Below are positions 31,601-58,925 of a DNA stretch of 64,000 bases, in pieces. A program made the position numbers and the translations under genes. A model generated the notes under the pieces. That model saw nothing but the letters and a program-made list of their open reading frames with translations. It was not told the DNA's origin and did not search any database. The stretch is taken from positions 25,221,795 to 25,285,794 of the forward strand of contig NC_092670.1 in NCBI RefSeq assembly GCF_964355755.1, in the 5' to 3' direction. The stretch comes from Antedon mediterranea (Eukaryota; Echinodermata; Crinoidea; Comatulida; Antedonidae). Numbering within the stretch: position 1 is the stretch's first letter; the number at the start of each line of letters is the position of its first letter.

Positions 31601-34600
31601 ATGTGTTTATAATCTAAAAGTAGGGCTACCCACACTCACAGTGATACAGTTTATTAGTATAATTATTTGTTTATTATATCTAACAGTACCAACACACTTT
31701 TGATTCAAATGGCGATCAAAAGTGGTTAATACCTATTTGCAGTATTGTATAGCATTACAATACTATTTCTGTTTATTCTCCAAGGGTCTATAAATTTACC
31801 TACTTGTGTTAAACCATGGAGGTATGCAATAATTTGGAATGTTCCATTCATTGCAAATCAATACATTTCTATAAACGTATATTAAATCTATCAAAATAGT
31901 ATTTTTTAAAGAAAATCGGCCTGTCTTCAACATTATGATGCTTTACTCGAGCTGTTCAACCGGTTTTCAGCTATTAAAAACAATTATCCAAGGAGGAGAT
32001 AGGAAAATGCGAAACATCCTCGTATTATTGTGTGCGGGTATTTTTCAAGACGGATATCCATTAGACAGTGTATTCCACGATCGGAAAACACCCCTATTTG
32101 GGGCAAATCGTTGAACCTAAATTCGTTTTATTCGTCAATAACTAATTATCTAACTCAATTTGATTAGTAATCAGGGTTACATCAGGTGGTTAAAATCAGT
32201 AACGAAAGTACGAACCAACTTTATATACCATCGAGTAAACATTCTAGAAATAACGCGTGATTTACCGAATTTTGCCCTTACGTAAATTTATATATAGATA
32301 CACCGTTCTTCATTTTCGTTAAGGGCCTAACTTCTAGATTCTTTATTCTAGAAGTATAAACTAAATTTATTATGTGAATTGAGGCGTTTATATAATTGTG
32401 TTTTAGCTGTGTGCAGTTCACCATGTGTGAACGGAGGATCGTGTATCTCCCCTGACACCTGTGAATGCCCACCTGGACTTTCAGGACCAACATGTTCAGG
32501 TAAGAATGTTTAAAAAATGTCAAAATTCGAGATAATAATAGGAAAAAAAGAAGCAATGGGTCTAAAATGTAATATTTTTTCCCTTAAATTTAACACCAAT
32601 TTTTGTTCATTCTAGTTATTTAAATGCACCTTTGTTTTATGATTTATACATATATTTTATTTGTATGCAGATTTTGATGAAAATGAGTATTGCTGGACGA
32701 TGTGGAACAATCTTGATGAACCATCGACCGGCCTTGGTGACTTTGAACGCATTATTGAGCACCGTGAACAGTAAGTCCGTTTATCAATTATTATGTTTCA
32801 AGCAATTTGTATTCTCTTTCTTTAACAGTTTATATTTTTATTTGTTTTTAAATGTTTTGCCAGCGGAAATCTTTTGTTTTAAATTACTGTACGAACACAA
32901 AAGTAATATTGTTTATACGGGCAAAAGGCAACCAGATGAATGAAAGTCCAAGTGAACGTAAAGTTTGGTTCCCACTTGTGTTTACGTCATGCGTGCAAGT
33001 GGGAACCAAGCTTTAACTAAATATAATGTAGGCATTAAGCGTAAAGAAAAATTGAAAACGGATTTCTTTTCTAGGAGTAAGATCTGCCAAGGAAGCGAGC
33101 CAATTGCCATTGAATGTCGAACAACTGGTGGAATATCATGGTTCGATGTTGCACAGACAGTAACTTGTGATCTTGAGCGTGGGTTCGAATGTGAACACTC
33201 TCAGCAAAAGAGCTCCACATGCGAAGATTATGAAGTACGATTCTTGTGTTCTTGCGGAAAAGGCGGAAAAGGTACTCTATAATAAAGTTGTTTAATTTTG
33301 AATTTATGTGGTTAACCCAGTCCATTCTAAACGATGCACACAAAACCGATTATTATAAAAATGTAAATAGAAAAATACATACAAAAAAATATGTTATTCA
33401 ACGTCTGTAAACAATTCTAAAAAAACATTGTTTTTAATCGTTTTAACTATTAAGTAGAGTTACTAAAAGTATTACTATAGACATATGGGTACTCAAACGC
33501 GTTTGTTAATACTGATGAAATTAAATTCCAATCTAACCACAATTTTATTTTATTGTAGATAAAGTAGACGACAAGAAGAAGCCAGAAACTACAATTGTTT
33601 CAACAGGTGATACAACGTTAATTTTTTTTAATGAATTTAAGAATTTCCTTTGGTCAACTTAACATTGATGGTAGGCCTATTTAGTGAGGATCTTTAAGTC
33701 AAAATATAGTACAGTACACAGCTTCTTTTGACCATATTATAAATGCAACAATTAGTATTTATATGCCGAATAGTTTAAATCTACTGGAATTTGGTTTTGT
33801 ATTTATAAGAATGAATGATATAATATTATTTGGTTTTTGTTTTTAGTATCACCAACAGTTGAAAATAAAACATGTTTTATTGGCAACACATCAATCAACC
33901 CAGGAATGACTTTTAATTTCGGTTGTCGCACTTGGTAAGTCGAACATTAATATTTTAAAATAATTAAAGATGTATTGTCTCTTTGACTAATTCAAAAACA
34001 AATTTAAAAAAATATTTCGAAAAAAAGTGGGTCATTTTGAAGTATAGTTATTCACTTTCACCAAATATTAGTCGAAATATTGTTCAAAAAATACATTACA
34101 AGTAGAGTCACCAGTCAAAATTGCTAAATTATAGCAGGTATCCTGCTATACTTTATTTGCACAAGTAATTAGCAATGTTTACATAATAGATTAATCAACT
34201 GATAACATGTGTACTACAAGTTTTTACAACATATCCTAACTTTTTTCAGAAACATATTTTATCACTTTAAACGAGATAAATGTGTTCAGAAGTATTTAAA
34301 ACATACATATTTCTCTTTGATTTGTAAAAATCAGTCAAATATAACGTATTTTGAAAGTTAGAGATGTATTTAATTTCCTTGGAGCCAAGACCTTAGAAAA
34401 CAAACGCTGTTCAATCTGTTGTTTTTCCCCCACCTACCAGTACAATGCCATGCCATGCTTTGTATAGAAAATCGTTCAGGCGGAACGATCGACTTCCGGT
34501 AAAGTTTAGCAGGCTAACTCTCTCGTGACTCTGGAGAGTTTGCGGACGCAAAGCTCCATTTCCTATTCTCCCAATGTAAAGTTTAGCAGGCTAACTCTCT

Positions 34601-37600
34601 CGTGACTCTGGAGAGTTTGCGGACGCAAAGCTCCATTTCCTATCCTCCCAATGTAAAGTTTAGCAGGCTAACTCTCTCTCGTGACTCTAGAGAGTTTTCC
34701 GACGCAAAGCTCCGTACTTCCCCGATTGTTGATGCGTTAGGATGTGATGATGACGCGTCACGTCAACGACGACTGATGAAAGAAACATTTTAAAGCAGGG
34801 GTTCCAGTCGAGTGATCATGCATGTTTTCATGCATGCTGGCAACTAAATTCTACAAAAATACAGTGTTAGGGTGAAGATGGGGATCAAAGTTCAATGATT
34901 TTCGGAATAAACAAAACAATCCTTCAAATGACAACAGGCCTAAAGAAAAATAACGTCAACCGCTTGAACAAAGAAAAAGGTACGTATTATTAATATTATT
35001 GATTTATAACGATGTGTGCACTCTACTAGGCTAGGCCTAGCTAGTAAGTAGGCTAGGCTAGTAGTAGTAGTAGGCCTGGTTTAGGCCTAGCTAGTACCGC
35101 CTAGACTAGAGCCTAGCTAGGCCTAGCTATAGACTGGCCTCTAGACTCTAGCGGCCTCTACTAACTAGCCTAGTCTAGTCACTGGTCTGTGCTTGTGTCT
35201 ATGGCACACAAGGTACCGAGATCGAGTCTCACCTTGGGAAACGAAATAAGATTTTTTTTATTATCTGTATTGTTTGTTCAATTTATTTTTTAGTGTATAG
35301 ATTATAATATACACATAATTTATAATGAAATCTATATAAAATGTAAGTAATGTCTTCATTACTTATGTAACAATGTGGTTTATGACATTAGGGATCTTTG
35401 ATCGGATTGTGATACCGGCTATTGTATTCCCGTTAGCAAGATCCTATAATATATCAAAATAATTAAAGATTATGAGAAAATCAATCAATCAATATATCTT
35501 TTAAAAATTATCTTTATTTAAATCAATGCATAAACCTATAATTCGTCATAATGATTTTGATTTGTCATTTCAATGTGCTTTTCTAACCATTGGGCTTTTT
35601 GCATATAAAAGTTTATATTTCCCACTTGATTCTGTTAATGATCAATTATTACATTTTTTCCCATGCTTAAATTTGCTGGTACCAAACAGGTTAATTGGTT
35701 TAGAAATAAAGAATTCCATTTCTTTTATAATAATTTATAGTTTATTTGTAATACAAAAGAATTAGAATTCATTGTCTTACAGTACAATCAGCTAAAATGT
35801 GCAGGTACCAAATGTTAATTTGTTTAGAAATAACGAATTCCATTTTTTTTGTAAATACAAAAGAATTATAATTCATTGTCTTACTCTTACACTGTACAGT
35901 ACAATCAGCTAAACTTTATTAGAATATAGAGACATTCCACAGTAAATTGCAATCCTATTGCAACATAAGTTGACACATCATAAATTGTTTTACACCAAAT
36001 TGGAAATTTTCAGATTTTTGAATTGTATAAAAGTTGTTTTATATTATTGAAAATGCAAATTTTATGTCACAGAATTATATCAATTACCTATAATTTGTTT
36101 AAATAAACAAATCCTACAATTTTTTAGTTAGATACTGTATGTTTATAGATGTTCACTTTTTTATGATTTGCATGATCCATTTTGACATAAACCATATAGG
36201 CATGGTAATAGTATACATTCCGGCATACAGTTCTGTGAGGAAAATCAATTCAAATGGTTTGGAAATCTTTAAAAATGTTAGTGTTATTATTTTAGTATGG
36301 TGCTGTCTTTGATACTATAGCAAAATATATTTTATTGAAATAGTTACAGCATAGAGCCTTCTGAACCATTTTCAGTTCCTTTTAAAGTCCCACCCATGCC
36401 CTACGTTTTTTAGATCTAATTTAAGGGCAAAAACGACATTTAATGTAAAAACAAATACTATTTATGGTCCTATTGCGATAACTATTTTTGTCTTTACGGT
36501 TAAAAATGTGAAAAATAACTTGATTCTAATAATATTAGCGGCCTGCTATAATAAGAAAACAAAATCAAAGTAATTATTTAAATGTATAGTAATAATAAAA
36601 ATATTTGGTGCATTTGTTAAATTTAATATTAAAACAAAAAGTTACCAGTTTTAAAGTGTCTTGGCTGCAATCAGCAAAAAAAAATGTTATAATGTTTGAA
36701 TATTTGGAGTGGCCGAGCGGTTAAGACAGTGGACCGTAATTACGTAGCCATAACATCGGCAGGGTTCGAGGCGCACTCACTCCATGTTCCTGGTGGTAGA
36801 ACGAGTCTTCTCGGATAAGGACTATAAACCGTAGGTCCAGTGTACACATCTAGCTCGTGTGCACTTTAAAGAACCTAGTACATCTTTCGAGACAAGTAGG
36901 GGGTATTAGTACATCACAGCCACTGATCATCAACTGGGCCGTCTGGGAGACCAGTCTTTGACTGAAGAGGTTACCCAGTATAAATATAAATTTCAATCAA
37001 TCAATCAATATTAAATATTTATGTACTGCTGTTTTTCTTGGTTGAATCAATGTAGGAAATTAATTAATGTTACTAGTAGTACTAGTATTTTAATTAATTT
37101 TTGTTGTATGTTTTTTGTTTGTTACATTACAACAAGGAATGACCTGGTTTAATGTTTTTAAAGTAATATATGCATTATAAAACGTCAAAAATTGTAGGGA
37201 ATGGGTCTTTAACTAAGTATGTAATTTATTTAATTTTCTTATTGGCACCAAACACAACAATTCTTTTGTATTGCACAAAAGAAATCTAATTCTTTTGTGT
37301 TTGATTAGTGATTGTTCTGAGTGGTTAATGTCTGATTACCAAATTTTAAAAAGTCATTAAACAATGCAATTTAAACAGCATTCTATCTCACTTGAAGACA
37401 AAATCAACAGTAATGATAAAAAGATTTGGTACATTTGTTAAATTTAAAATTAAAACAAAAGGTTACCAGTTTTAAAGTGTCTTGGCTGCAATCAGCAAAA
37501 AAAAATGTTGTAATGTTTGAATGTTAAATATTTATCATAATATGTACTGCAGTGCTGTTTTTCTTGGTTGAATCAATGTAGGAAATGAATTAAAGTTATA

Positions 37601-40600
37601 AGTACTTGATATTTTAATTATTACAAGTTATATACAGTACTATAGTTAGTAATTATTATTATATACTGTAATAGCCAGTTGCAAACAGGTGTGAAATAAA
37701 ATAATTGTTTGTGATTTTTTATCTTTTATTATAGTGAATTAGAAGTTGTGAGGTTATGACTGAATTGCAGACATACTGAACAGGCCTGTGTTTCCAAAAT
37801 GGTGATGTTTACTCATTTTCTCAATTTTAGAAATTCATGTGCAGTTGATAGCTTTTTAGAATTGGCATTTTTCTGTTTGTTTCATAAACTTGTTACAATT
37901 CAAAGAAACCCATTTTTGGATCTTGTGTATAAAACTTGTGTGAATCGAAATCTAAACTGTCAATATGCTGTTCTGAAAGAAGTTTGTGAGCCTGTGTGGA
38001 ATTGGCTGATCAGTAAAAATAGAAGTTTCTACCCGAAAGGAAGTATCAATACGTCGTTTGAAGAAATATTGGATTATATCTCTATTACTGATGACGAGAG
38101 GAAACTGTTTTCATTAGGCATTCAAAAGATTTGTGCTTGCAAAACATCTCATACATTGTCATTATGCCCTATCTATCTTAGTTCACAATTACTCATTGAT
38201 AACAATCACAATTTACAAGCAGAAGTTGTTGATTTATAAATCAATTACTGCAGTAGTATTAATTTCTGTATAACTGTCATTATATATTTATTAACGGAAT
38301 ATTTCGTTGAATTGTAAAAAAAATGTTTAATTATTGTGTATTTTTATCCTGATATTTACAATCACATGATGAGTTAATTTCAGTGTGTCTATGGGGGCAA
38401 TACGCTTTACTCCTTGCATAATTTTAATGTGTAACATCAAGTTGTATTACTTATTCAAACAGTTGTATTAGTTTTAGTAATTTGTGATGTTGCTACTGTT
38501 GGTAACTTGCTAATCAAAGTCTTTATAAGAGAGTTGACACCACTTCTACAGTCCAAGCAGAAGTTGTTGATTATAAATCAATTACTACAGTAGTATTAAT
38601 TTCTGTATAACTGTCATAATATATTTATTAACAGAATATTTTGTTGAATTGTAAAAAAAATGTTTAATTATTGTGTATTTTTATCCTGATATTTACAATC
38701 ACATGATGTGTTAATTTCAGTGTGTCTATGGGGGCAATACTCCTTGCATAATTTTAATGTGTCAAGTTGTATTACTTATTCAAACAGTTGTATTAGTTCT
38801 AGTAATTTGTGATGTTGCTGCTGTTGGTAAATAAAATTGATATTCAGTGGAAATAATTTTAATTTCTTTTCATTTTTATTGTTGTTATATATTAGGTATT
38901 AATTTTTTAAATTTTATTATTTACTGAATTGTGCCATGGATAAATAATTATCCGTATTGTTATTTCTCCATGGTATAACAGAATATTTTATTCTGTAAAC
39001 AGGAAATACTATTGGGAAACACAGAAAGATAAGCAGGGGGTTAGTGTGATTATTGGAATAGCTAAAATTAAATTTAGAAAAATACTGCGATACAGAGTAA
39101 CTTTTTAAGTACTGGGTGGATTTTTTCGCAAAAAAGTATGTAATGATTCTTTTGATTAAATATATTCAAATTAGAATATAGAATATTCATAATATCAATT
39201 AAAATAATACGGAAAATATAATCAGCCAAACATTTGTTATCTATCATTTCCCCATACAGGAAGCTGTATGACCTCGAGCGTACTTAATCCTTTTTTTCCA
39301 CTTTCACTGGTGACTCTACTTGTAATGAACTTTGACTTCCAGTCAAAGTTTTCGATCAAAACATATCTCATAATGCATCGCGCTTGTTTGGTTACTCTGT
39401 ATGCATCATAATCATGAAACTTCCTCGCGATCTGTGAGAACACCTTCTCAACCGTGACGAGTTGTAAGCAATCCTAATTATTATTATTTATTCAGGCAAA
39501 AGATACATTTTACAAATAGAATCATGTATAACCCATACTCGTGGTTTTAAATCTTTTCGCGACGATTTTCCAGACGAAATGTAATTAAATTAATTTACCT
39601 GTTAATTACGTAAACTCGAATTTTAGACTTAAAATGAATAACTTTAATATTACTTTGATATGATCAATTTAAATTTAGAATATTTTGACCTTCATTTTGT
39701 GTGTTTCAAGGGACAATACATCTTTAAATAGTAAAAATTAAAAACAGTGGAGTAAAAAATGGTACACTTTCTCCACGCAATTGTAGTTGAACATTGGCGG
39801 CGGTAACACATTTCTCGACTGAGAACAGGTTGTGCCTGGTCATCGTGTTGGAGTTGTTTCGTAATCGTAGAAATCGCAACGCGCGCAACGACAGTTACAA
39901 TTTTGAACAAGGAAAAATGCACGTGAATGTTTACAATAAAGTAGTTTTGCTGTTAATTATTTTACAGTAACTGCTCAATTGATGGAACATGGCTTTGCGA
40001 GATGAACTCAACCTGCATGGTGAACGAAACATGTAAGAATTATTTATTACCTAGTCCTAGGGCCTAGTAGCACCAGCTGGGCTTAGCCTCTACTCAGATC
40101 AGATGGAGGAATTAGCCATGATCAATGGGTCTGCGGTGGTGTAAGACAGTCTATGTCTGAGGCTGACCATGGTATTGTGTTCAAAGCAGAGAGACCCTGA
40201 CTGATTTTATATATCATTAAAAAAAATACTCCTAAACGATATTATTAATAATGGATAGTTTTTCAAAAATAATTTTTCCATTCTAGTCACACCAGGACTT
40301 TGCGAGGTGAACATGACAACAATTATCCGTGAACAAGACATCACCACCATCGATTGTAATGTTTGGTAAGTTCAATGAATGATTTCATTTTAACATGTAA
40401 TATAACTTGTAGCTCTAGCAAAAACTGTAAAGTGTTTTCCAAGGTTGAACACTGGTTAATCATTTTAATTCATTTGTCTGCAGCGTGTGTACTAACAGCA
40501 GCAGTCTTGCATGCACCAAGATGATCTGTCCAGCAAAGAGTGATGCTCTTATGACACCAATGTCTTCCCGCTGTTACGATAACGAGGGGCTACCTTATGA

Positions 40601-43600
40601 AGAGAATACATTGAGGAAAAAGGATTGTAATGTTTGGTAGGTTAATAAGTTTTAATTAAAAGACCAAATTTCCAGTAGACATTTTTCTATATTTTTCAGT
40701 TACTATATTACCATAAAACACACCTTTTTTTCCTAACTTTTGTAGTGTATGTACAAAAGGCAAATGGGATTGTACACGTCTTGATTGTTCTCAAGATATC
40801 TTTACAGCTCAGATGCCACAAAATGTCTGTACTGATATCAGTGGTAAAACATACCTTAATGGTGAAACTCTTGTAAAAGACTGCAATGCATGGTAAGTTG
40901 ATAATCTATAAAATGAGCTAGGGCCTAAAATGAAGTGCTTCAATCTGGTAATGTTCAGTATAGGACCTTGCTTATTGATCTTATTTTTGTCTTAAAGAAA
41001 ACATCTGTTAAATTTTCAAATTTGTCAATATAAATTTTTAGGACCTGCTCCAAAGGTGAATGGGCCAGTACTCGTCGCTATTGTTCACCAGTCACTTACC
41101 CAAACACCACTTGTCTGGACACCAACACCAGCAGTATCTTGACCAATGGAAAGACCATTCGACGTGGATGCAATATCTGGTAGGTTTTTACAGTATATAT
41201 ACTCAAAAGGGTTGTAACATAATTTACATTTTGTTTCGTATTTTTTTTAACCGTGATACTAGACTTACTCATAGGTGACTTGGAATCATTCCAAAGATAA
41301 TTCAGGACTATTAAGATTAATTAATAATAAAAATTATGATAAATACTGATTTATTTTTTTGTGTGCAGTGTTTGTAATAGTGGAAACTTGACATGTACTT
41401 CAGAAGAATGCCCAATGGAAACCTCTGGTAAGTAGTACAGAATTATTAATCATTTTGTTACTGTATTATTTGCTTTGATGTTAAATCCTATAATATGAAA
41501 GTATAAATTCCTTTCACATGCCCACAGTTATTCAATATAGCTATTTTGTCTTGTACTTTTCTGATGTGAAAACAGATTTTTTGACCCAAATTCAATTAAA
41601 ACAAGTTAAATTAAATATATTGTTTTGTAGGAATCTGTTTGCGTAAACTTCAACGTTACCTCATCAACAACATGACTAACACAACAAGAAAGAAGATGTA
41701 CCCACCTTCTTGTAACACAACAAATGGTCTTTACCAGCCAGTACAGGTTAGTTAATAAAACAATTACATTGAAAAATATTGAAACAACTTTTATTTCATT
41801 GATGTTGAATATTTTATATTACATCACATAATTGAAATCGCTGTTTTTCTAGGTCATTACAAAAGAAATATAATATTTTAAGGAAATATAGCATCTGGGT
41901 CCTCATAGGTTTAGTCACATGATGCCATATCAATCAATCAATCAATTTTTAATACGGCTTTACCACGTTGAAACACCGGTTCTCGTCAGATCACCGAAGT
42001 TAAGCAACGTTGGGCTTGGATGGGAGACCATCTGGGAATAGCGGGTGCTGTATACGGAGCTGGGGTCCCATTAGGCATTTGAAATCAGCACTGCTGACTC
42101 TTATGGCAGCCCCTGCATCTAGTATCTGCCTCAGACCTCTGGTCAAGGTGGGCACTGGACGAGAGAAGCCCTTGATCAATATCAGGACCAATCAAGGTGC
42201 TTTAAACAGTCCTGGCTTTGTTTGTATCAAACCTGTTAGTGACGGTAATTATCGCTGTTGGTTTCGATTGAATAAAATATTTTTGACACCCTAATGAATA
42301 ACTGTGCAAAGTTTCAGAATTTTATCACAATTTAAAGGATTGGTTCACTTAACAGGCCTACTAAATCACGTTCTCATATTTACATAGGCTATTATATTAT
42401 TTGTAATTTATATTTTTATCTTCTTTATAGTGTTATGGAAAGAGATGCTACTGTGTCACACCATATGGAAGTTACATTCCAAGCACCTATTCCTATGGAA
42501 AGAAACCAAACTGCTCAGCTTTCATCTGTAAGTGCAGCAGAACCCCTCTTTTGCCACACCCAATACAAAGAAAACCCCACTTAAGGGGACAATTTGTCCC
42601 CTCAATAGAGTTCTACTACTGTAATTGTTTTTTGTTTTTTTAAACCATATTTAATGAGGGTGATCCATCCACCTATTGCTGATCATTAGGGACCCTCAGA
42701 GGTTCACAAGACAAACATATACACAAGATCATGCTCTACATAAACAAAGTCTTATTACAAGTCTTTGGAAGTGGAGTAATTTGATCCTTAGAAGAAATCC
42801 TGACATTTGACAGGACTTGAACCCAGGACCCTTGGAGTGGTAGACAAGCATCATAACCACCAAGCCACAACTCCACTCTGTTACCATAAATATCTGATAA
42901 CTTGGGTTTAATTTAACTTTAAATGCCTTTCTTATTTCATTTCATTGTAGACAATATTACCATGCCACCAATGACAGAAATTGAGATGATACCTTTGACA
43001 GAAATTGAAATGAGGCCAGAAGAAGTAGAAAGGATGCAAGAAGAAATAGAGTCTAGGCCAGAAGAAATAGAGTCTAGGCCAGAAGAAATGAAGAGAAAGT
43101 CAGAAAAAATGGAGAAGTCATATCGTAAACCAACATTGATGTATGAGTCTTGTAAGTCTTGTTTCATTATCTCTTTAGCCAATCAAATTGATTTTTAAAA
43201 AAATTCAAATTATTCATTAGCTAGTTAGCATAATACTTCTAGTTTGAATGCAGCGAAAACTGTTGTAAATTGTAGCAATATAACTGTGAGCCTTAACCAT
43301 TATTGGTGTATCTGATCTTTTTATTCTGACGGTTTTTTCAGACAACCTAACCTGTAATCAAAGGATATTGAAGTCTTTAATGTCGCCAATGTCACCACGA
43401 CCAACATGTCTGCCAGACGGTTCCTACACTCCAACCCAATGCTGTTCAGAGTCTAAGATGTGCTATTGTGTTTACAGTAATGGCACATACATTAACGGTA
43501 CTCTGACCCACATCAGTAATGGAATCCCTCTCTGCAGGAACTGGAGACCAGGTATACAAACATTGTATTATTTTTAGTTAAAAGAACAATTTTTAAAAAT

Positions 43601-46600
43601 ACAAGATTATTATTGAGACTTCCCTATCAAGAAGTGTAAGTAGGCCTACAATATGTATTCCAAGATACATCAATATGTGTCATGAGGAGGGTGACAATGA
43701 CGCACTCTATGCCGTCCTTCGACCAATATGTGTCATGAGGAGGGTGACAATGACGGACTCTATGCCGTCCTTCGACCAATATGTGTCATGAGGAGGGTGA
43801 CAATGACGGACTCTATGCCGTCCTTCGACCAATATGTGTCATGAGGAGGGTGACAATGACGGACTCTATGCCGTCCTTCGACCAATATGTGTCATGAGGA
43901 GGGTGACAATGACGGACTCTATGCCGTCCTTCCACCAATGTGTGTCATGAGGAGGGTGACAATGACGGACTCTATGCCGTCCTTCCACCAATATTTGTCA
44001 TGAGGAGGGTGACAATGACGGACTCTATGCCGTCCTTCCACCAATATGTGTCATGAGGAGGGTGACAATGACGGACTCTATGCCGTCCTTCCACCAATAT
44101 GTGTCATGAGGAGGGTGACAATGACGGACTCTATGCCGTCCTTCGACCAATATGTGTCATGAGGAGGGTGACAATGACAGACTCTATGCCGTCCTTCCAC
44201 CAATATGTGTCATGAGGAGGGTGACAATGACGGACTCTATGCCGTCCTTCCACCAATATGTGTCATGAGGAGGATGACAATGACGGACTCTATGCCGTCC
44301 TTCGACCAATATGTGTCATGAGGAGGGTGACAATGACGGACTCTATGCCGTCCTTCCACCAAATGATACTTTGTTTCTTGTTTGTATACATGTTGATTTT
44401 GGTCGAAATAGATGTTGACTTGAATAATATGTAAATTCTGTATGAACTGAGTTTCTCTGAGAACACAGGCTTATCAGCTCTACCTTAATCAAGTTATGTA
44501 TTTGTATATAAATGGTAAAATGTGTATTTTATTTTTTATTTCAGAGGTTGAATCTTCTTTCCCAGGTTGGTGTATTTTAGTAGCTATTTTATCTGTAACT
44601 TTTTAATATTATGTTCACAATAGTACTATATCCTCTAATTAATAAATTTAATTTAATTCTCGTTTATTTAGTCATTCTTTATAATACATAGTATGTAATT
44701 GATGGCTAAGCATCTTGTAATACAAGACACTTTTACAAATGCTCAATGTTTAGAGGTAATAAACATTAAACTTTGGTTTTCAGAGTTATCTACCTGCAAG
44801 ATAAAGGCTAGCATCGCTAAGACTTTAAAGCTACCTTACGTACCAACATGTACTGAAGACGGAAGCTTCTCTCCAATTCAATGCAACATCATTACAGGTG
44901 TCTGCTTCTGTGTTGATTACCTTGGAGATATCGTCCCAGAAACTGTCACCACACGTGCTGGTATTACAACACTAACATGTGAAATGTACCACACCGGTAA
45001 GGACCATAATTTATCAATTATAAATTTTTTTTTTAATGCTTTTTAATATTTTTTTGGGTAAATATTTGTATAGCTTGTAATAATTTAATTTAATGATGAA
45101 TACAATGTCTTACAATATTAATTTACATTGCAAAATCATAAAATGTATATTATATGCAAAATTAATCATTTTCGTTATCATTTTCAGAGGAATGGAGACA
45201 GCAGAAGAAAGACAGAATCATGCCATCTAAAATCTTCTCACACATCATTGATGTAGACACTTTCCCAGAAAGTAAGTCCTTAAATCATACTTTAAAAACT
45301 GACCCAGTGACCTGGGTTGAACAAGTGGTTTATAGTTAAAATAAGATTGCCTGTACCCAACATGAATATTACTGTATTTCAGTATAATCCTCATTCTTCA
45401 ATTTATTTTTTATTGGTCTAATTTCATATAAAAATAAAATTCAGAAAATTTTTGTTAATACACTCTAGTTTATAATGACATGAACAATGTTTAAAACAAT
45501 AGAAAATACAGATAATGTTTAAAAGTTCAAAAAAATAATTTGTATATTCAATAAAAAAAATTGGCAACATTTATAAAAACTATAAAACTCCTTAACTAAT
45601 TTAGGCTAAATTAAGACTTTAATAAATCCAATGTTTATGAAATCCAAGCAAATTCCACCTACAAATTTTTCCCAAATTGTGTACCCTTACCCTCTAGGAC
45701 TAAAATTGGACTAAAATACTATTTGTGATCTATCTTCTATCTATATGCTGTTTATTAAAACATTTCTTACAGGGATGCCAGCATGCTTAAGACAACAGAA
45801 GATTGCTGTTACAATGAAGAACATCTATTCGCCATCATGCCGTGATGATGGTTCTTTCGAACCTCTACAGTGCCCCACTAAAAGCCGTGTGTGCTTCTGT
45901 GTTGATATCACAGGAACTGTTGTTGCAAACACCACATCAGGAGAGCTCACCCCACCTAATTGTGACATGTATCATAATGGTAAGGTTGTTCACATATCAG
46001 AATGTGGCCATAACATTGTATTCAATTTATTACCACATACATGTACATGGGGAATGCATATTTTAAAATCTGTGCTATGCAGATCACAGATTTTTAACAT
46101 TAGTTATAATTAGAAATTCATTAGAGGATAGAGGGTTTATATTATGAAGAATGAGGTTATGGCTATACCTACAAAGCTATGTTTTACACCCCTGATTCTT
46201 TTTAGAGCAATAATTAAACATTCAAATACAAAATATGGGATATTGTGTAAGCTCATTTTGTTCATGTCTTAGTCTTTTAAATGTATAAACTAAAGTCATC
46301 AAGACCTGTACTTAGTATCTTCCTTTATTTCTGCAGTATCACTTTTCAACTTCACTGCCATCAACAACAGCTCCTTCCTTGGATCTCTGCCAACAGAATG
46401 TAAAGAGAACTGTACAACCGTTGGAGTACAGACTCTCAGCGAGGAGACTCTACCATCAAACCGCACCAACATCAGTATGTATACTATACCTACAGTTCTT
46501 TAGATACATCAGTATGTATTCCATAGGCCTACCTACAGTGTACCTTTGTTTGATTTGATTAATTAAAAAGCTAATCTGGTAGGCACTGCACTACTGGCTA

Positions 46601-49600
46601 CCTGGATCAGTGGAGGGCCTAATCCGAATTTCCTCAGTTTCCAATTAAGCTTGAGGACAAAATATTAATACCAAAATCTAATTTTAAAAGTAGGCCAGCC
46701 AAAGAGAAATTTCACACTTTCACAAGTATTCCTAAAAATTATTAAAGGACCTGATATTTACCTGGGTAAGTTGGTTCCCAACCACCAAAGTTAGTGATAA
46801 ATGTGCCCATGACTAAACCTAAATGGTCCTAAAAGAAAAATTGAAAGGAAAATTTTTTCTATTTATCTGTGTAGCTTTGTCAGCATGTGGCCACCAACAG
46901 GTCATCTCCAGCATTGTTCCAGGTGTATTCAGACCAACGTGTAATGCTAATGGTACCTTCTCGCCTCTTCAATGCCAGCCCCAGTCTGGTATCTGCTACT
47001 GTGTTGACACTAATGGTGTTCGTATTGAATCCACTGAAGCCAAGATCTACCTAGGAAATCTACCATCTTGCCAACAGTATTGGAATTGTAAGTGGTTAAT
47101 TGCACTGTAATCGTTGTGCATTTAAGACTATATTTTCATGCACATATTTTTTTGTCCAGTCCTCCTATTTAGTAATTTTTATAAATGTTTGTTTTTAGTT
47201 ACTATTGAAGTGGTGACCAACATGACATCTGTGTATCCTGAGGAGCTTCAGATGGTCAATGCCTTGACCCCTAACAACATCAACATCTCTTCATTGATGA
47301 ACTTCACAACAGCCAAATTCAACTTCACCAGTTTGTTCAACCAGACTACTCTCTCCATGCTCAACCAATCAGAATGGAACATGACCCTGCATACTTTGAT
47401 GTTCAACAGCACCCAGTGGAACACCAGTCTCTTTAATGACACCCTTCTCTCCACGATTATGAACGTCTCCACATGGAATACTACTGTGTTTAACACCGTT
47501 TTCAACGAATCCATCTGGAATCAGACAGATTTTAACCGTCTCTTCAACGCATCACAATGGAATAGCACATTATACACAGTCATGTTCAACAGCTCTATGT
47601 GGAATACAACATTCTTTGATGTCATGTTTAATGTGACACAGTGGAATGATACAATGGTTTCCTGGCTGTTCAATGTCTCACTGCCTAATGTCACTTGTAA
47701 TTTCACAAAATACAATAAGAATCCACGCATTAAAGGTAGGGTGCATTTTTTTCTTATGCATTAACTAAATTTTTTACTTAAATAATTTTTTTTAGTTTTT
47801 AATTTTTTTTAAATTTTAGTTAGTTTCATAGGTTACTGCCATAAATAAATAAAAAAGCTTACTAAATAATTGCATAAACCGGTAGACACAAGACACTAAA
47901 TAAAAATCAAGTCTAATTCTATAATTAAACTTTTTTTCTAAATAATTTCTGTTTTGTTTATTAGATTGCTTTAAGATGCAGAAACTCGCCAGCTGGAACC
48001 CAGAATTTATGGCTCCGACTTGCAACCCTAACAACACATACACAGCTTTGCAATGCAACCGCAAGACTGGCTATTGCTACTGCTCGTATCTAAATGGAGT
48101 TGCCATTCCAGAGACTGTTACACCCATCATTGAAGGAACTCCGTCTTGTTGGCAGTATTCTACTGGTAAGGCTATGTGATATTTCCAGTAAATTAATCAA
48201 TCAAGTTTCTTATTTATTTTAGCATATGAAATAAACAAGAATGATATTTTTTTCCAGTAAACATTACTAACATGACATTGACTGAGAAGAAAATTGCCAA
48301 CTTTACCAAAGAGACTTGGACGCTTGCCAACCGAGGTATCATGTGGAATATGACACTTAACTATCTTTACCAAATTAACAGAACATTCACAAGTAAGTCT
48401 GGTGTGATACATGCCCTTTGAGAGGTCATGCCTTTTGAGAGGTCATAGGTTAGTTTATGTTGGTGGAAGTTATCTTCTTCATGAATCTGTTTTTAGGCTT
48501 TGTTCACATGTAAGCACATACACTACTACGGTACATGTTTTCAACTAGTTGTTTTTATATTGGAGGAACATCTTAAAAACATGATGTAAAAAGAAGTAAA
48601 CGTAAGATTTGTTTCTGTCAAACTGACTGACCAAATAAATGAATACATTTTAAACACACACATTTTTTGTTTTTATTTGTATTAGTGGTAAATCAGACTT
48701 GTTTCATTGGTAACATGTCTATTGCATCAGGAACTAACGCAACCTTTGGCTGCCAAGTGTGGTAAGATATTTCTGCACTTTTTAACTCCAAAATAATTAA
48801 GTGAATGTAATCAATATTTGATGATGATAATAGGTCTTAATAAAAATTGTTTTTAGTAGTTTATGAATTTATATAAACGGTTTTTTTTTTTAAAGCAACT
48901 GTACCGATGGCATCTGGAAATGTAAAATGAATGACACCTGTATGCTAAATGAAACATGTAAGATTATTACTTATTTATTACAAATGATAACACACATTAG
49001 ATTAGATGTTACTTACAGGGTCAAAACAAATTGCATGTATGTTTTGCGATTCTTCTGCCGATCTAAAATGGTTCTGGATCTTTATAATCCACCATTGAAT
49101 CTTTCCCTGAGCTTGTGTGTTGAATTTATAATGTATGAAACATCCATCCTGGGTATCACTGTTTTAAAACATCTGTATTTTTCCCACCTGCAGTCACACC
49201 AGGTGTTTGCCAGGTGAATGAAACTACTATTTTGATGGAGCGAGATATCACCACTGTCGACTGCAATGTATGGTAAGTGACCAATTGTAGATTATAATTT
49301 GTGCACATTTCATATTAGAACCATAACATATATATTAATAGAGTTGAATTTAATGTGATAAATGTTGTCATTTCTAGTGTTTGTGCTCGCAATAACTCTT
49401 TGGTTTGTACCAACATGATGTGTCCTGCCAAGAGAAGCATAGAGGATGTGGCCAAGAAGTGTCTTGATACCCGTAAAAACAAGTGGTATGATGAAGACAC
49501 TGTTCTCCGTATGAGTTGTAACGTATGGTAAGAAATTTGTCATCAAGTTTATTTTATAACTAACTGAAATTAATAATGTTGGTGTTATTACTACACATGC

Positions 49601-52600
49601 TGGTATGGTAGATGGAATGCAATGCTCAAAGTTTGCTGCCTAAGGGAACAATTTTCATTTAATTCTGTTTTTCTTTCAGTTTGTGCTCTCAAGGTGAATG
49701 GGACTGCACTGATGAGAAGTGTCCTTGGTTCAATGAAGAAAAAGCATGCATTGTTGGTGTAGGTGAATCTTATCCTCATGGAACCACTCTGCTCAAAGAC
49801 TGCAATGCCTGGTACATGAAATAGCTCTTTTTATAACTTTATCATATTCATGTAAATTTGGTTCTAACAAAGGCAGATACAGACATTGTTGTGGACTTCA
49901 TGCAACATAATGACGTTCATAAATCGCCAACCTGGTATACGATTTTCTTGATTTTGATACATTAACATGATATTTTATAAACCTTAGCCATGAAATTGTT
50001 GGGTGTGCCCTAGTACTCGCTCCCCATTCTGTACCGCTTACATGACCTGGTTACCCACAACTTTAAATGGTTGAAGTCTATTGTTTGATGAATGAACTTA
50101 TAACCACTTTTATCATTATTCAGTTTATCCAGTAGTCTGTCCATTCTTTCCATAAGAGATACTGATTTACTTTTTGATGCTTTTACTTTGAAGGACTTGT
50201 AACAATGCTAAATGGATTGGAACTCAACGATACTGCTCACCACTCACATACCCAGAGAGTAGTTGTCTTGACCACAACACCAGCACTACTTTGACCAATG
50301 GTCAAATGGTCAGACGTGGATGCAATGTTTGGTAAATAGAAATGCTTGCAATATCACAATTTTGTAGCATTGTATTGAAATCAAACAAGATTGTTTAGTT
50401 GTGATGGGTTAATAGAAAGTATTGTATATGTTACACCCTGTTGAATTAATATACAGTATATATATATATATATATATCAATTGTTTTTTTAAAGTGTGTG
50501 CAATAGTGGTAATATGGTGTGTACAGATGTTGAATGCCCTACAAACTCCTCAGGTATGCTATCTCATTGGTAATGTAATGATCTATTCTGACAATCTACT
50601 AATCCAAAATGTCTGACAAACTTAAGTTAAGTAAGAGTTCAAAATCAATTGTGATTAGAGAGTTAATTGTCTTATAGTTAATTTATGACACCAAGATGTC
50701 AATAATGTGAGTATTATTTGTCTGTTTTATAGGAATATGCTATGATCAACTTAATCGTTTTCTCTATGGCAACTCGTCTGTAATGGCATATAGACCAAGA
50801 TGCAATGCCACCAACGGCCTCTACCAACCAGTACAGGTGAGTAAACAAAAACAAACCAGCTTATTTTACACATAGAAACATGTATTCTGTATACCAATAT
50901 AATCACAACAACTGTGTAATAATAGTAACTAACACTTTAAGTAACTTTACAATTGTCTCATTTCATGACGTTTGCATTCTTTTTTTTTTTTTTCAGTGCT
51001 GTAACATGAGCAACATGTGTTTCTGTGTAGACCCAGTTGGACAATATTTACCTGGTAGTCTTGTGTACAAAACAATGCCAAACTGCTCAGCTTACATCTG
51101 TAAGTTTCTTTAAATAACTAGCTGTACTCTTCCACTAATGGACAAGTATCATCTAGTCACAAAAACATTTTTTGAACATAGCTACATGCAGAATTAAAAG
51201 ACGCCCCAGCTCAAACAGCAGGAGTATAGGTTTAGGAGGAGATAGAGTAATTTCGGGTTGGTAGAATCATGATCAATGTGCACTGATAAAGCATGTGCTT
51301 CACTAAGTTAAAATTGTAAAACTTCCATTTTCCCACCCACTTTTCCATTATAACATTTGGAGTGGAGTTGTGGCTTGGTGGTTATGATGCTTGACTACCA
51401 CTCCAAGGGTCCTGGGTTCAAGTCTCGTCACATGTCAGGATTTTTTCTATGGGCAAAATTACAACTTCATTCCCAAAGACTTGTAATAAGACTTTGTTTA
51501 TATAGAGTATTTGTGAACCTATGAGGGTCCCTAATGATCAGCAATTGCTGGATGGATCACCCTCATTAAATATTGTTAAAAAAAACTTGAAAAATAACTT
51601 GATAGACTTAATCTACTTTATTAACGTTGTGTCATGATACATACATTTGATTAGATGTTTAATTTTTCTTATTTCAGACAATGTAACCAGACCAAAACTG
51701 AACTTTACAGAAATACTGAATACAACACAGTTACAACCAACAGATATCAATTGGGGTAATCTTACAAAATAATTATGTAATAAATTATTTGAAATAGATG
51801 AAAAATCAAGTGAAACTCAAGATGCATTTCAGACGAATACAAACATATTTCTATATATTAATTTGTTAATTTAAGATATGTATCTATAAAACAAACAAAA
51901 AATAGAAATAATAAATATTTTGTAATTAAATAATTGGTGTTATTTGTAAATCCAAATTTATACTCTTTTTCTTAGCTAACCGTACTTGTCGTCAGTTGTT
52001 GTTCATCTCTATAATAAACAAATATGTTGCGCGTCCAACCTGTCTTCCTGATGGATCCTTTGCACCTCTACAATGCACCGTTGAAGGCAACTGCTACTGT
52101 GCCTATAGGAATGGCACATACGTCAACGGAACACTCACTCACATCAGCAAGGGTACACCTATGTGCATGACATTCAGAGATAGTGAGTTCAAACTTATTT
52201 TGAATTAAATCGTAATGTTCAAGGTAGTGGGTTCAAATCCTACTCACAGTACCAGGATGACTAGGATGTGCAGTTTGAAAGACTTTTGGGCACAATGTTT
52301 TGTGTGTTAGAGTATGATTAAAGAGCGCATTTAAATAAAGTGCCTGAAACCAACAAAATATCACATTAAATAATTATGTTTTAAATTTGTGTTCTCAGCA
52401 TTGGAGTTTGTCACCTCTGAAGTAGTAACAGGTAAATGATTGTGTAATAAACCTCATACTTATCATTTATTACAAAATAAATAATAGAGCTCACTTTGTA
52501 CCGTGTAGTGTCTATATGGAGGAATCCATACATTACTTGATATACCAACAATACACAACAATGCGTTATTATTATTATTTTTTAAAACTTATGATGTTGT

Positions 52601-55600
52601 CTTTTATCATAATGTTAGAGACACCAACGCTGACCAGCTGCGTTTTCAAAGCCAAGCTGGCAAAGGAAGTCATGTTGCCACATGTGCCTACTTGTGATTC
52701 CCGTGGCATGTACACGCCTCTGCAATGTAACACCATGACTGGTCTCTGCTTCTGTGTTGATATTCAAGGCATGGTAATTAAAGATACCACAGTATTGATG
52801 ACTGAAAGAACAAGACCTGACTGTATACAGTACAGAACAGGTATGTTAAACATCATGTTAAAATAGCAGTTTTAATGAATGCTATTTTAAGTTTTTTACT
52901 TTTAATTTCTGTGATAACAAAGATGAAGGTTTATTTTGTTTTTGTTTATAGAAGAATTAAATAAGAAATTAAGCTATCAGAGAACACCTCTTATCTCAAG
53001 CATCATCACAGATGAGAAATTCCCAGATGGTAAGTTTGAATTTGTTGAAACAAAAGGTACAATACTCTACTTAACAATTGTGCTATTTGCATGCATTTAT
53101 TCACTCAGTACATCAATAATTTAGTCAATATAATAATATTATATATCAACTTATCTATCGTATTCTGTGGTCAGAAAAGTGAAGAAGAAGGAATAAGAAT
53201 TCAAGACCCATTTCCTTAATTTATAATGTTATCTTATTATTATTGCAGAAATTTCAGCTTGTGAGACACAGAAGATTGTTGCCAGTGACCTGAAGACAGT
53301 ATTCATGCCAAAGTGTGATTCCACTGGTTCTTATGTACCGTACCAGTGTCCAACCAACACCGATGTGTGCTTCTGCGTTGACAAGACTGGAACCGTTATT
53401 GCCAACACCACAACCATGGGCGCCACAAGCTCTCCTGACATGTGTGATAAGTACAGAAATGGTATGTCAAAATCTCAAACATTTAGAGTATATCGATATA
53501 TAAACTAGAAAATGCTAATTTGGCTAGCATACTCACTGTCCTTTGTAGGCAGATATTCAGTTCTTGTGACTATCGAGCTATACTAACTATATGTTTCATC
53601 AAATGTCATACAAATAAGGACCAACCTAGAAGTATATCTGTCTCAGTTGGCCTTTAAACATGGTTTTACAATGTACAGTACTTGGTTCTAGATATCATTT
53701 TTGCTTATTTATAGTTATTGCATCATTAACCAATAAACAATCTTACTTATTTTTCCAGTATCATTGCTTCCAAGGATGATGGTAAATGCCACTGTTTACG
53801 AGGTATTCCCATATTTCTGTGACACAGACTGTCCAAAGACTGGCCCACAATTCAACAGCAGTTTGAACTACACTCTACCTGTCAACACTACCAGACCTAC
53901 GCGTCGTAAGTATACTAGAGTAATATCTCAAATAAAAATGGTCCATTATTTAAAATAATATTTATATATATATATTTATAAATATTTATGTAAAAACAGT
54001 GAAATACATGTCCTTAGCTAGGAAACTTGACAAAGCTTTGAATTTTGATGGACAAATGTGTGTACAATGACATCCTGTCACTATATGTAACAACTCAAAA
54101 AATATATACAAAAAATATATACGTTTGTTTTCTTTTTTTCAGCATCTTGCGTTCGCCAGCTTGTAATCTCTAGCCTTGTACCAGGTGTTTTCAGACCAAC
54201 TTGTCTGAAGAACGGAACCTTCTCACCACTCCAATGTCAACCACAGTCTGGCATATGCTACTGTGTTGACAGAATGGGTGTGACTATTCAGGGAACTGCC
54301 CAAAAGGTGTCTCAAGAAGGACTTCCAAATTGCTCAATGTACTGGAATAGTAAGTTTTTTTATAAGCATTATGGCTTTTCGTTTTTCTTAGGTACTCCTC
54401 TTGCCGTGTTGATTGCTCATTTTATATGATGCACCTTCTGACTGTACTCCTTCCATAGTGCCTGCATATTTTTCCTCCGCTTCTGACATTGTGTCTATAT
54501 TGTTGAAATGTCCCAAATCTGCCATTTTTTCTGGTTTAATTTGTAATTCTTTTTATTTGCAGCTACTCTGCCTGTCAATATGAATCGCACTTCCTTCATG
54601 ATTGAAGAGATGCAGGCAATGAATGAGATGAACCTGGAGACTGTTAACGTGACGGAGTTATTCAACCTCACCAACATCTTTAATGCATCCATGCCATTCA
54701 ATATCTCTCAATTTAATGCCACTTTGTGGAACATCACTGGTGTCAATACAACACAACTTGGCACAGAAAGACAAGCTTGGTGTAAGTATAACATTTACAA
54801 AAATGATAGCTTGTAATAGTAAGTAAAGCAAAATGTCTTATTGCTTATTGGTATATCACAATTTCAACATCAATAATTCGTTTACACATACGTATGTTAT
54901 GTTAACCATTATCGACTTACTATGTCTTTTATAATGAATTAATAATTTTCTATTATTGTTACCAGCTGTGAAAACTGACTGCTTTAAGAGGCAGCTGTAT
55001 GCCAGTAGACGAGGCATGTTTGTTCCAAGTTGTAACCGTGACAACACTTACACAGCTCTGCAATGCAACAGAGAGACTGGCATGTGTTATTGCTCATTAC
55101 CTAATGGTTATGCCCTCACTGGAACGGTTACACCAATTACTGAAGGTACCCCATCATGTTGGCAGTACCCACAAGGTATGTATTGCACACTCTAATTACA
55201 TTTTATCTTCAGGTCCGCATCAATTTAGGATGATCTTTCTGACAAGACAAAAGCATCTTTACCAGGGATGTCACCACTATGGATGGCCCCGTTTCCGACC
55301 ACCATTTTCATGACGCCGACAACCACTATATTTACGCATGTAGATCGTAGCCTATTGTAACTTACTACTACTAAGATACGATGTATTGTTATTAAAATTA
55401 TCAACGCGTCGATCGTAGGGTGGTCCGTAGGGTTAATAAACAACATTGTCATCGCCTTTAGAAAACGCATGGAAAATGCAAATTAACAATGTACTGTTCA
55501 TTAATTAAAATCGGCGCCGCCTAAAAATCCTACCTAAGGCTAGGCCTAGTAGGAGACGACACATTTTGCTAGTTAGCCGGACGAGACGACATCGTGCGCC

Positions 55601-58600
55601 GAATCGATATATCGGAGTGGAGTCTAGTTTCGGCGACCTAGGCTTACGCTAAATTGTTTAATCCTACCTTGGCTTAGCGAATTATAAATATAATATTCCG
55701 ACATAAACATAAAAAAATTAATATATTCCATGTTAAGATTTAGGCCTATTCAATTATTACGACATGTCACTGTGTAATGAAAATGGCCCTAGTATTCTGT
55801 AGGTAACCCAAACCATAATTAATTTTGAGTAAAAAAAAAACATGTGCTACATGTGATGGTGGGAACAGTTAATTTAGAGTAGAGAGTATCGCGTTTCATG
55901 TCATGTGACACAAAATATAGGTACACGATCTTCGTCACGTTTCCAGGCCTGCCATATATGAGCCAAAAAATAAATCTAGGTCTGTGCGCACGATTGACAC
56001 TATATTTAGAATGTTAACGATCTTTTGTTGTCGGCATCGTTTTTGGGTCGGCATCGTTTGTGGATCAACATCGTTTGTGGATCAACTGGACGTTTTAAGT
56101 TGGCCAAAGCCTATACTACTACTAGTTCATTGTGGTTCACCGTGTGGTGTCATCATGCCTCTACCGTGGGAAATTTCTATTATATTTGCCGTCGAGTTGA
56201 ATAGATAAAAAAACACCACGAAAAAACGATTACGATTAATATTATTTATTAATAAATGCTTCCGAGTAATTTACAACTTGGTCCTCCGTCAGTCAAAATT
56301 GAGTCATTAATTTAATTGTGCACACCTTGTTACCTCACAAAAAACATCGTAATGCATTTTTTCCGACCTTATTATGGAATGCGTGGGTTTGGCGGAGTAG
56401 CTGGACCCCCCTCTCCCAATTTTTTTTTTGGGTGGGGGGGGGGGGGCCGGATCGCCGACCACCACTCATGACATGCTGGTGACATCCCTGTTTACTACAG
56501 TATGATGACAATGACCTAGTATTTGATTTGAATAAGAATTTCAGAGCTACAGTACATGTGAACATTATGTAGCATTTTGTTAACAGATTTATACTAATAT
56601 CATTGTATTCTAGCTTTCAACATGACCATGCTAAACAATTGGAGGTTGTCGACGATAAGAAGAGCATATTCTAACTGGACTGATACTTTGAACTCAACAA
56701 GTTCTGTTGTAAAACCTTCTATGGAGCCTACTGCAGAACCAATCCCACCAAGACGACTTTGTAAGTTTTTTCAAAATACAGTTAAGGCTAGCTAGGTAGC
56801 TAGTTTTAAGAGTTTTTGCTATTATAAGTGAAACCCACAAAATCAGACCACCTAATACTTTTCAATTGATACATAGAGTATAGAGCTGTAGCTTTGGTGG
56901 TTAACATCCAATCCCAAGTATGGGGTTCAATCCTGACCTACACTAGTGCCAGAGTTTTAACTCTTGCGCAACTCCATTCCCTGGAGACTTGGTTTATAAG
57001 CACGATAAATTATTAAATAGTTTATCCATACTGTAATTGGCAAGCTACTCACTGTTGGATGAGTATTAAATAAAAAAAATTTAAAAAAACTATGTTTTAT
57101 TTTTGTGATTATTAGAGTTTTATACAGTATTGTTTTTTTTAAATAGAATTTTTAACACTGTAAAAAGTAGCTGAGTATAATATCTTTTGATTTGTATTAT
57201 TTATACAGATGATCCACTATCATGTAAAAAGATTGGTAACTTTGTTGTTTACTGTTATTGTACCAGACCATCTGGTGCTGAGGTTGACGGCACTCGACAA
57301 TATTTCTCCATTCCAGACTGCCGCAGTTATCCAGGTATGAACCAGTAACCTCTTAGATCTAAGAAGGATTGAAGGGAGTAAGGGTGCATGGAGGAAAGGT
57401 GTAGGGAGAGAGGGCCAGTGTATACATATTTTTATTTAAGTTGTTTCATTCAGTGATATATTTTTTTTCTAGATATGTGTGAAGCCCGTGGTCAATTCTA
57501 CAATCCAGGAGAGAAGGTGATTAAGAAACCAACGCAAAATGGATGCCAATCATGGTATGAATTATTTAATTACTTATGTATGTGAAGTATGCAAGAAAAA
57601 CATGAATGTACATTTTACCGAATTAGTAGGCCTACCACACCACCATTGTTTTGTACTTTTTCCCATTAGCACATGTACCTCTGGAAGTTGGATGTGTGAG
57701 TACACCATGGAGTGTGAAGAAGAAGGCCAAATAACTACCACCACTGAGCCACTACCAACACAAACTGTGACACCAAGCAAAGAGATGCCATCATCCCAGA
57801 ATATGCCACGAACCACCCTAGAACCACATGTATGTCAACATGAAGGCATTTCCTACAACAGTGGACAAGTTCACTCGTGGGATTGCAGAACATGGTAAAT
57901 TTATGTGATTTTGTGTAGTACACTGTGGTGCAATGCAGAGGCCCCTAGTGGCCCTTTTAGCATTTTTCGACATGTTTTAATGCCTGTTTTTTCCTCTGGG
58001 TGTTACTCTGTAGTTTCTGGATTTAGAGTGCTCATAGCTGTTACACCACTGGTAGTAAGCCTGCTGTATAATTACTGAATTTCAAAGAGGCCATATCAGA
58101 GTAATAATAATAATTACCACATTTCTATAGAACACTTTTTCATGGATAATCATGCTCTTACATTATTACTCGGGTCATTTTTTGGGAAACATATACTCCC
58201 ATAATGCAGCTAGTAAGTAATCATTTTATACAATTAGGTGGAGAAAGGCAAATGTAAGTAAAGTGTCTACCCGAAGGATACAAGCAATGCGATGAGAGCT
58301 GGATTCGAACCACGATCTCATAATCAGTAATCCAACATGCAACACACTGCGCCACATGCCCTAATAAGTAATTTAATATATTACGGTATAACAAATTTCT
58401 TCATCTTTTTTTCAGTACTTGTATCAATTACCAATGGGTATGCTCAACAAGGAACTGTGATACCACAACCATCGCAACAACTAATGTACCAGTAGTAACA
58501 ACCATCGGTTACAGAGATTGTACTATCGGCGATATGGTGTTTGATCATTTATCCACCTTCAATATTGGTTGCACCGAATGGTAATTACAATATTTTTTCA

Positions 58601-58884: not shown

Positions 58885-58925
58885 ACAATTCAAAATAGTA
58901 AGAATCCGAACACCCCTTTATAACA

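Follow-up and report, generated by a model that had tools for sequence, protein, structure and literature searches.

A gene of the crinoid Antedon mediterranea almost certainly contains the two copies of one old block duplication, in which twenty consecutive exons were copied within the gene. The gene lies on the forward strand of contig NC_092670.1 (assembly GCF_964355755.1), in a stretch of 64,000 nucleotides (positions 25,221,795 to 25,285,794) that we call the window, and all positions are counted from its first letter. Each copy, block A and block B, contains five six-cysteine modules and six type-1 thyroglobulin (TG1) modules together with spacers, several of which are rich in N-glycan sites (Table 1). 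The predicted product is a large extracellular mosaic protein that may act as a protease inhibitor.

Exons were rebuilt with a splice and codon dynamic programme favouring conserved cores, and many short chance exons were set aside; exon B10 (51678-51755) was not returned by the programme and was read from the sequence by eye. Block A comprised 20 exons at 33847-48392 (1034 residues) and block B 20 exons at 48686-56760 (888 residues). All 40 exons were bordered by AG and GT, and start and end phases agreed between A and B in 20 of the 20 exon pairs. The lengths of the pairs (A/B, in nt) were 88/76, 65/62, 79/79, 153/150, 147/132, 138/138, 59/59, 116/104, 97/103 and 201/78 for pairs 1-10 and 210/207, 21/33, 213/222, 84/78, 207/213, 138/147, 213/207, 537/219, 201/210 and 135/147 for pairs 11-20. 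Exon A1 contains a second in-frame AG, the use of which would give 76 nt, equal to B1.

Alignment of block A with block B by BLASTP gave 667 bits (E 0.0, 44.6% identity). When a 20 x 20 exon matrix was scored against shuffles, 18 of the 20 diagonal cells were reciprocal best matches, spacer 20 and the short spacer 12 (7 residues in A, 11 in B) being the exceptions. When exon order was permuted, the observed order ranked 1/120 for the five single-exon TG1 modules and 1/5040 for exons 1-7, and the six spacers, ranking 2/720, had a weak tendency to pair in order. These results bear out a first-pass annotation, made from the sequence without database searches, which had matched twenty exons one for one and in order, with agreeing phases. 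Its length table stood in all but two values, A4 being 153 nt (40484-40636) instead of 152 and B20 147 nt (56614-56760) instead of 148; with these one-base slips as printed the phase would break, and it is kept after correction. Block B accordingly ends at 56760, not at 56761. The peptides NGTYxNGTLTHIS and QPQSGICYCVD, said to recur, each occurred once per block. The exon numbers 8-47 and a total of 2346 residues were not recovered: four exons rather than seven were resolved upstream of block A, and the rebuilt model holds 2286 codons including the stop, with an incomplete N end.

We investigated the history of the modules with trees. The larger TG1 tree contained 35 rows, namely the 12 block modules plus 23 taken from seven other loci in this genome. 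These loci were chosen among 35 TG1 matches outside the window, and the 23 rows were those with a domain E < 1e-7 out of 29 TG1 matches in the fetched loci; the half TG1 module after block B was excluded from the TG1 trees. This tree joined pairs 1, 2, 3 and 6 (support 99/99, 98/97, 94/92 and 99/94) and did not resolve pairs 4 and 5, and it placed the 12 block modules in one group (92/84), with a bootstrap that had not settled. In the 12-row TG1 tree pair 4 was recovered with support 33/0, and pair 5 was not recovered and was not rejected (p 0.41). The tree of six-cysteine modules, with 13 rows and several long branches meeting in it, recovered pairs 1, 2 and 4; pairs 3 and 5 were not recovered, yet were not rejected (p 0.37 and 0.38). 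Approximately unbiased (AU) tests rejected the six TG1 modules of A as one clade (p-AU 2.4e-6) and the five six-cysteine modules as a per-block clade (p-AU 7e-4).

Under the models used, these AU rejections make it vanishingly improbable that each array was built up on its own by adding single modules and came to resemble the other in order, the outcome that the first-pass annotation had itself named as contrary to its proposal. The order of the spacers also argues against separate growth, as do the phases and the split of TG1-1 over two exons that both blocks have in common, and all that we found in its favour is the pairs that the trees did not resolve (TG1 pairs 4 and 5, six-cysteine pairs 3 and 5). 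Third-position identity in codons for the same residue was 53.1% of 128 in exons 1-7 and 54.0% of 298 in exons 8-20, and four-fold site identity was 38.8% of 49 and 45.2% of 135 (standard errors 7.0 and 4.3 points). As the latter difference does not reach the standard error of the smaller set and the third-position values are alike, one age fits both halves, and two separate duplications of the six-cysteine part and the TG1 part were set aside. Module 4 lacks Cys3 and Cys5 in both blocks. In the solved pacifastin fold described in PMC2689174 these cysteines form one disulfide, and the joint loss of both partners is therefore most simply older than the duplication. The trees, the AU tests and the similar synonymous divergence of both halves thus support a single event copying about a thousand codons, as first proposed.

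The two blocks were identical at 49% of residues, with 55% identity in modules and 32% in spacers, and the largest length differences fell in spacers, in line with the earlier claim that divergence was mostly in spacers. The two largest length differences accompany short repeats in A, of 21 nt (7 residues) in A10 and 14 residues in A18. Nonsynonymous and synonymous divergence by NG86 (dN and dS) were 0.47 and 2.28, and 43% of the 184 four-fold sites were identical vs 32% expected from composition. Spacer four-fold sites, of which there were only 26, were 57.7% identical vs 42.2% of 109 in TG1 exons. The duplication is old, and its synonymous sites are near saturation; the residue identity and the four-fold identity against expectation rule out a recent duplication or an assembly artefact. 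Comparison of the introns of A and B at E 0.001 gave one match only, between the two introns 9 (42528-42950 and 51100-51677; 248 nt, 83%). Its orientation is opposite, so it was set aside as a trace of the duplication; a mobile repeat is the more likely source, and the two copies are probably separate insertions of one mobile element. A 53-bp tandem repeat (43671-44362, 13.1 copies, 97% match) takes up the greater part of the A11-A12 intron; it was not listed in the matching B intron and is thus likely recent.

The two blocks could instead belong to adjacent genes, one ending with block A and a tandem copy starting with block B, that never share a transcript. The interval between A20 and B1 is 293 nt and contains one AATAAA, which favours two genes and weighs against one. 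Frame and phase run on across this interval, however: A20 has a GTAAGT donor in phase 1, the phase in which B1 starts, and a stop after A20 is reached only if that donor is skipped. No in-frame ATG was found upstream of B1, and no second copy of the WxxW or EGF module was found in the window at E 0.01. On this splice, phase, ATG and domain evidence two adjacent genes are disfavoured and look very improbable, and one gene appears to be much the better reading.

We next consider the modules themselves. Pacifastin_I (Pfam) scored 76.3 bits in the six-cysteine array of A and 52.9 in that of B against a cut-off of 27.9, and in both blocks it exceeded the bits of VWF, VWC and FnI_RECK on the same stretches; on the C-terminal modules it reached 18.9 bits, below its cut-off. 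The first-pass annotation could not name this architecture, for which pacifastin-like plus TG1 modules is the better name. Pacifastins are held by three disulfides, 1-4, 2-6 and 3-5, and all six cysteines were present in eight of the ten block modules, the exceptions being module 4 of A and of B. In 13/13 six-cysteine modules the codon at the place of Cys3 is interrupted by a phase-2 intron, between TG and N, and in two of them it reads Trp. The spacing from Cys1 to Cys2 was 16-18 residues in 10/10 block modules, all within the 13-20 residues given for 'ancestral' pacifastins in PMC13388995, and 16, 16 and 21 in the three C-terminal modules; Asn followed Cys2 in 8/10 block modules. A genome search with the PF05375 profile missed this gene, probably as each of its modules is interrupted by an intron, and gave a single match, on C10.

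Pacifastin modules inhibit serine proteases through P1-P1' in the loop between Cys5 and Cys6 (PMC2689174, PMC13388995). The predicted P1 residues of modules 2-5 were K, R, R and S in A and N, D, Q and D in B, giving a basic P1 in three of the four readable loops of A. The P1 of module 1 was unreadable because its loop is one residue too long, and that of module 4 is a less safe reading because Cys5 is lacking. The blocks might form two paralogous inhibitor cassettes with split specificities in one secreted chain, A with its basic P1 (K, R, R) acting on trypsin-like enzymes and B, freed by the duplication and with acid or amide residues (N, D, Q, D) at all four readable sites, on another class or none, with TG1 kept in both; we consider this unlikely, if worth stating.

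The TG1 modules were submitted to Pfam as five of the six in A (A8-A17) and four of the six in B (B8-B15), and Thyroglobulin_1 was matched at E 4e-59 (196.3 bits) and E 1e-46 (156.4 bits), above the cut-off of 20.6. The whole genome gave 45 TG1 matches, all above the cut-off, of which 10 were the single-exon modules of this gene. A fold model of A17 (TG1-5 of A), built from a 10-row alignment, had a predicted local distance difference test (pLDDT) value of 87.8 and matched chain I of 1icf, the p41 fragment bound to cathepsin L, with template-modelling (TM) scores of 0.77/0.83; saxiphilin and thyroglobulin were also matched. The model thus indicates a TG1 fold for this one module. TG1 proteins that block cysteine and aspartic proteases are termed thyropins, and three loops do the inhibiting in the p41-cathepsin L complex (PMC10889554). 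In another gene, at locus L001 (G000:C11:2043000-2052000, about 4026-5350), four near-identical TG1 exons stand in tandem, a recent local expansion unlike the old block.

The model carried 97 N-glycosylation sequons in its 2286 codons, vs 33.4 +/- 5.0 in 500 shuffles. EGF and WxxW modules stand upstream of block A, and half a TG1 module and three VWC/FnI-like modules downstream of block B, with a TAA stop within the last exon (58836-58886), one residue past the last cysteine. We propose that the gene once had a single block of 20 exons, encoding five pacifastin-like modules and then six TG1 modules with spacers, and that a second, tandem copy arose within it. Unequal crossing-over or a tandem duplication, breaking in phase-1 introns on both sides, would be the natural route. 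As phase 1 is found at both ends of the block, the frame would have been kept, and the copies would then have diverged to about 50% amino-acid identity. We infer that the product is secreted and is retained in matrix or mucus, where it would serve as a multi-headed protease inhibitor with an N-glycosylated scaffold; its TG1 modules would target papain-like cysteine (or aspartic) proteases, and its pacifastin-like modules serine proteases of the trypsin type. Taken whole, with the block duplication in one gene for a large extracellular mosaic protein and with the inhibitor role, this explanation is moderately probable in our view; for the inhibitor role by itself, which is predicted from sequence, we put the chances at about even.

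Several findings weigh against an inhibitor. Neither a first exon nor a signal peptide was located in the gene model. The pacifastin pattern Cys1-X9-12-Cys2-N-X-Cys3-X-Cys4-X2-3-G-X3-6-Cys5-T-X3-Cys6 (PMC2689174), with its 9-12 residues from Cys1 to Cys2, was found in 0/13 modules, and the full core was present in 4/13 (modules 3 and 5 of A and B) when this spacing was widened to 9-18. A basic P1 occurred in 0/4 loops of B, and module 4, without Cys5, may not hold its loop as an inhibitor does. VWF, VWC and FnI_RECK were also above their own cut-offs on the six-cysteine arrays; VWC scored 44.2 bits in A, 34.1 in B and 42.2 in the C-terminal part (cut-off 27.6), and its best stretches stopped at profile position 38-39 of 57. 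When modules 3 and 4 of A were matched to PDB sequences, von Willebrand factor came first (sum of 17.0 + 15.0 bits), ahead by E-value of the pacifastin inhibitor SGPI-1 (21.7 bits), which makes the VWF/VWC reading a close one. Many proteins, among them thyroglobulin, IGFBP and EpCAM, have TG1 modules for which no inhibitory role is known.

The same gene, duplicated in the same way, could therefore encode a structural protein of matrix or mucus, in which, as in von Willebrand factor or nidogen, the TG1 and six-cysteine modules space the chain and offer surfaces for binding, without inhibition. The VWF, VWC and FnI scores and the first PDB match speak for such a protein, as do the heavy sequon load and the WxxW module before the block, with 30 of the 32 WxxW domains among the matches listed lying elsewhere in the genome, many of them clustered. 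Against it stand the higher bits of Pacifastin_I in both blocks, the P1 residues K, R and R in three modules of A, and the superposition of TG1-5 of A on a cathepsin-bound TG1. We regard the structural alternative as serious, possible though not probable. Under the inhibitor reading and the structural one alike the duplication stands, and it is a clean case of protein growth by a very large ordered block of about a thousand codons rather than by single modules. Since all exons have partners that seem equally old, the blocks offer a natural ruler for the divergence rates of inhibitor modules, reactive loops and glycosylated spacers.

The search for a second copy of the block covered a genome of 354 Mb (18 contigs) and found none, only weak matches; such a negative does not prove that a copy is lacking. 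When block B was the query, the strongest match beyond the window, on C11, scored 54.4 bits, just under the 55.2-90.7 bits of A's five single-exon TG1 modules, and one weak six-cysteine match lay on C6 (E 0.001), in a locus of full VWC-like exons. The six-cysteine part of A, used as query, gave 12 matches, all of them inside the window.

Table 1. Exons of the duplicated gene in the window, with coordinates and strand
Feature	Position	Strand	Evidence or remark
Upstream exon, tail of EMI- or EGF-like module (CCEGWQGDRC)	30791..30843	+	splice/frame fit only
Upstream exon, EGF module	32407..32499	+	Pfam EGF_2 22.2 bits, cut-off 22.1
Upstream exon, WxxW module, first half	32671..32770	+	Mucin2_WxxW E 7e-20
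Upstream exon, WxxW module, second half	33075..33271	+	Pfam Mucin2_WxxW
A1, six-Cys module 1, first half	33847..33934	+	
A2, six-Cys module 1, second half	39968..40032	+	
A3, six-Cys module 2, first half	40287..40365	+	
A4, module 2 second half (loop CTKMIC) and module 3 first half; 153 nt	40484..40636	+	
A5, module 3 second half (loop CTRLDC) and module 4 first half	40746..40892	+	
A6, module 4 second half (Cys3 to Trp, Cys5 to Ser) and module 5 first half	41042..41179	+	
A7, module 5 second half	41369..41427	+	
A8, TG1-1 first half	41631..41746	+	
A9, TG1-1 second half	42431..42527	+	
A10, spacer with 21-nt tandem repeat	42951..43151	+	
A11, TG1-2	43342..43551	+	
A12, 7-residue spacer	44545..44565	+	pairing by position and phase only
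A13, TG1-3	44784..44996	+	
A14, spacer	45188..45271	+	
A15, TG1-4	45773..45979	+	
A16, spacer	46337..46474	+	
A17, TG1-5	46875..47087	+	also fold model
A18, spacer, 23 N-glycosylation sequons in 179 residues, 14-residue repeat	47199..47735	+	
A19, TG1-6	47965..48165	+	
A20, spacer	48258..48392	+	pairing by position and phase only
B1, six-Cys module 1, first half	48686..48761	+	
B2, module 1 second half	48896..48957	+	
B3, module 2 first half	49194..49272	+	
B4, module 2 second half (loop CTNMMC) and module 3 first half	49378..49527	+	
B5, module 3 second half (loop CTDEKC) and module 4 first half	49680..49811	+	
B6, module 4 second half (Cys3 to Trp, Cys5 to Gly) and module 5 first half	50194..50331	+	
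B7, module 5 second half	50495..50553	+	
B8, TG1-1 first half	50733..50836	+	
B9, TG1-1 second half	50997..51099	+	
B10, spacer	51678..51755	+	read by eye
B11, TG1-2	51976..52182	+	
B12, 11-residue spacer	52399..52431	+	pairing by position and phase only
B13, TG1-3	52619..52840	+	
B14, spacer	52952..53029	+	
B15, TG1-4	53249..53461	+	
B16, spacer	53759..53905	+	
B17, TG1-5	54143..54349	+	
B18, spacer, 8 sequons in 73 residues	54563..54781	+	
B19, TG1-6	54966..55175	+	
B20, spacer, 147 nt	56614..56760	+	pairing by position and phase only
Downstream exon, TG1-like module, second half	57209..57334	+	
Downstream exons 57473-57554, 57670-57894, 58416-58580, 58836-58886	57473..58886	+	three VWC/FnI-like six-Cys modules; Pfam FnI_RECK, VWC

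The likeness of the first upstream exon (30791..30843) to an EMI tail is our presumption and not a Pfam match. The first half of the TG1-like module at 57209-57334 was not found, and that module may be degenerate. WxxW-domain matches form a dense cluster on the same contig (G000:C1:38572108-38611514), perhaps mucin-like genes. Elsewhere in the window, an NPL4 gene lies upstream at 15980-21948 on the + strand (PF05021, PF05020), and two long open frames of 665 and 420 residues on the - strand at 2460-5822, perhaps an unclassified mobile element, had no Pfam match at E 0.01. An open frame of 159 residues at 37760-38236, in the 6-kb first intron of block A, likewise had none at that threshold.

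Among known systems, Trichoplax tapp-1 has 42 pacifastin modules in 88 exons, with an intron between the first three and the last three cysteines of each (PMC2689174). The present gene resembles it in its long six-cysteine array and its mid-module intron, the place of which agrees to the precision of the text of that paper; it differs in having 5 + 5 modules in the company of TG1 modules, spacers and other domains, and a Cys1-Cys2 loop of 16-18 residues in the ten block modules. It is like the 'ancestral' pacifastins of PMC13388995 in this spacing, in the Asn after Cys2 and in its multidomain setting, and unlike them in that only 4 of its 13 modules keep all core residues. The legend of Figure 7 in that paper names Thyroglobulin, VWC and FnI among the partner domains of pacifastins, so the combination of pacifastin and TG1 is, as far as that legend goes, not unheard of; the term 'internal duplication' is absent from the available text of the paper. 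In literature combining at least two of TG1, WxxW, EMI and VWC no such protein appeared among the matches listed, and the matches listed for TG1 repeats with duplication concerned other genes. The pacifastin family has been widened recently, and the gene extends it by a mosaic rich in TG1 modules, with a mid-domain intron like that of the Trichoplax case.

Thyropins (MEROPS I31), such as the p41 fragment, equistatin and tick IrThy, also have six-cysteine TG1 modules, and one modelled fold of the present gene matches 1icf. The differences are that twelve TG1 modules stand in one chain here and that CYC or CFC is read where the account in PMC10889554 gives a conserved Trp-Cys-Val. The likeness to thyropins is one of sequence and of this one fold model, and inhibition of cysteine or aspartic proteases is predicted. 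Serial repetition of neighbouring exons within a gene is also described for the triplicate region of nebulin, in which eight exons occur three times (PMC9109913); here, unlike nebulin, twenty exons occur in two old copies of about 50% identity. Repeated exon runs as such are already known. To these the gene, an inhibitor-like mosaic, adds a large and old block duplicated within itself, which illustrates well how mosaic proteins with repeats grow.

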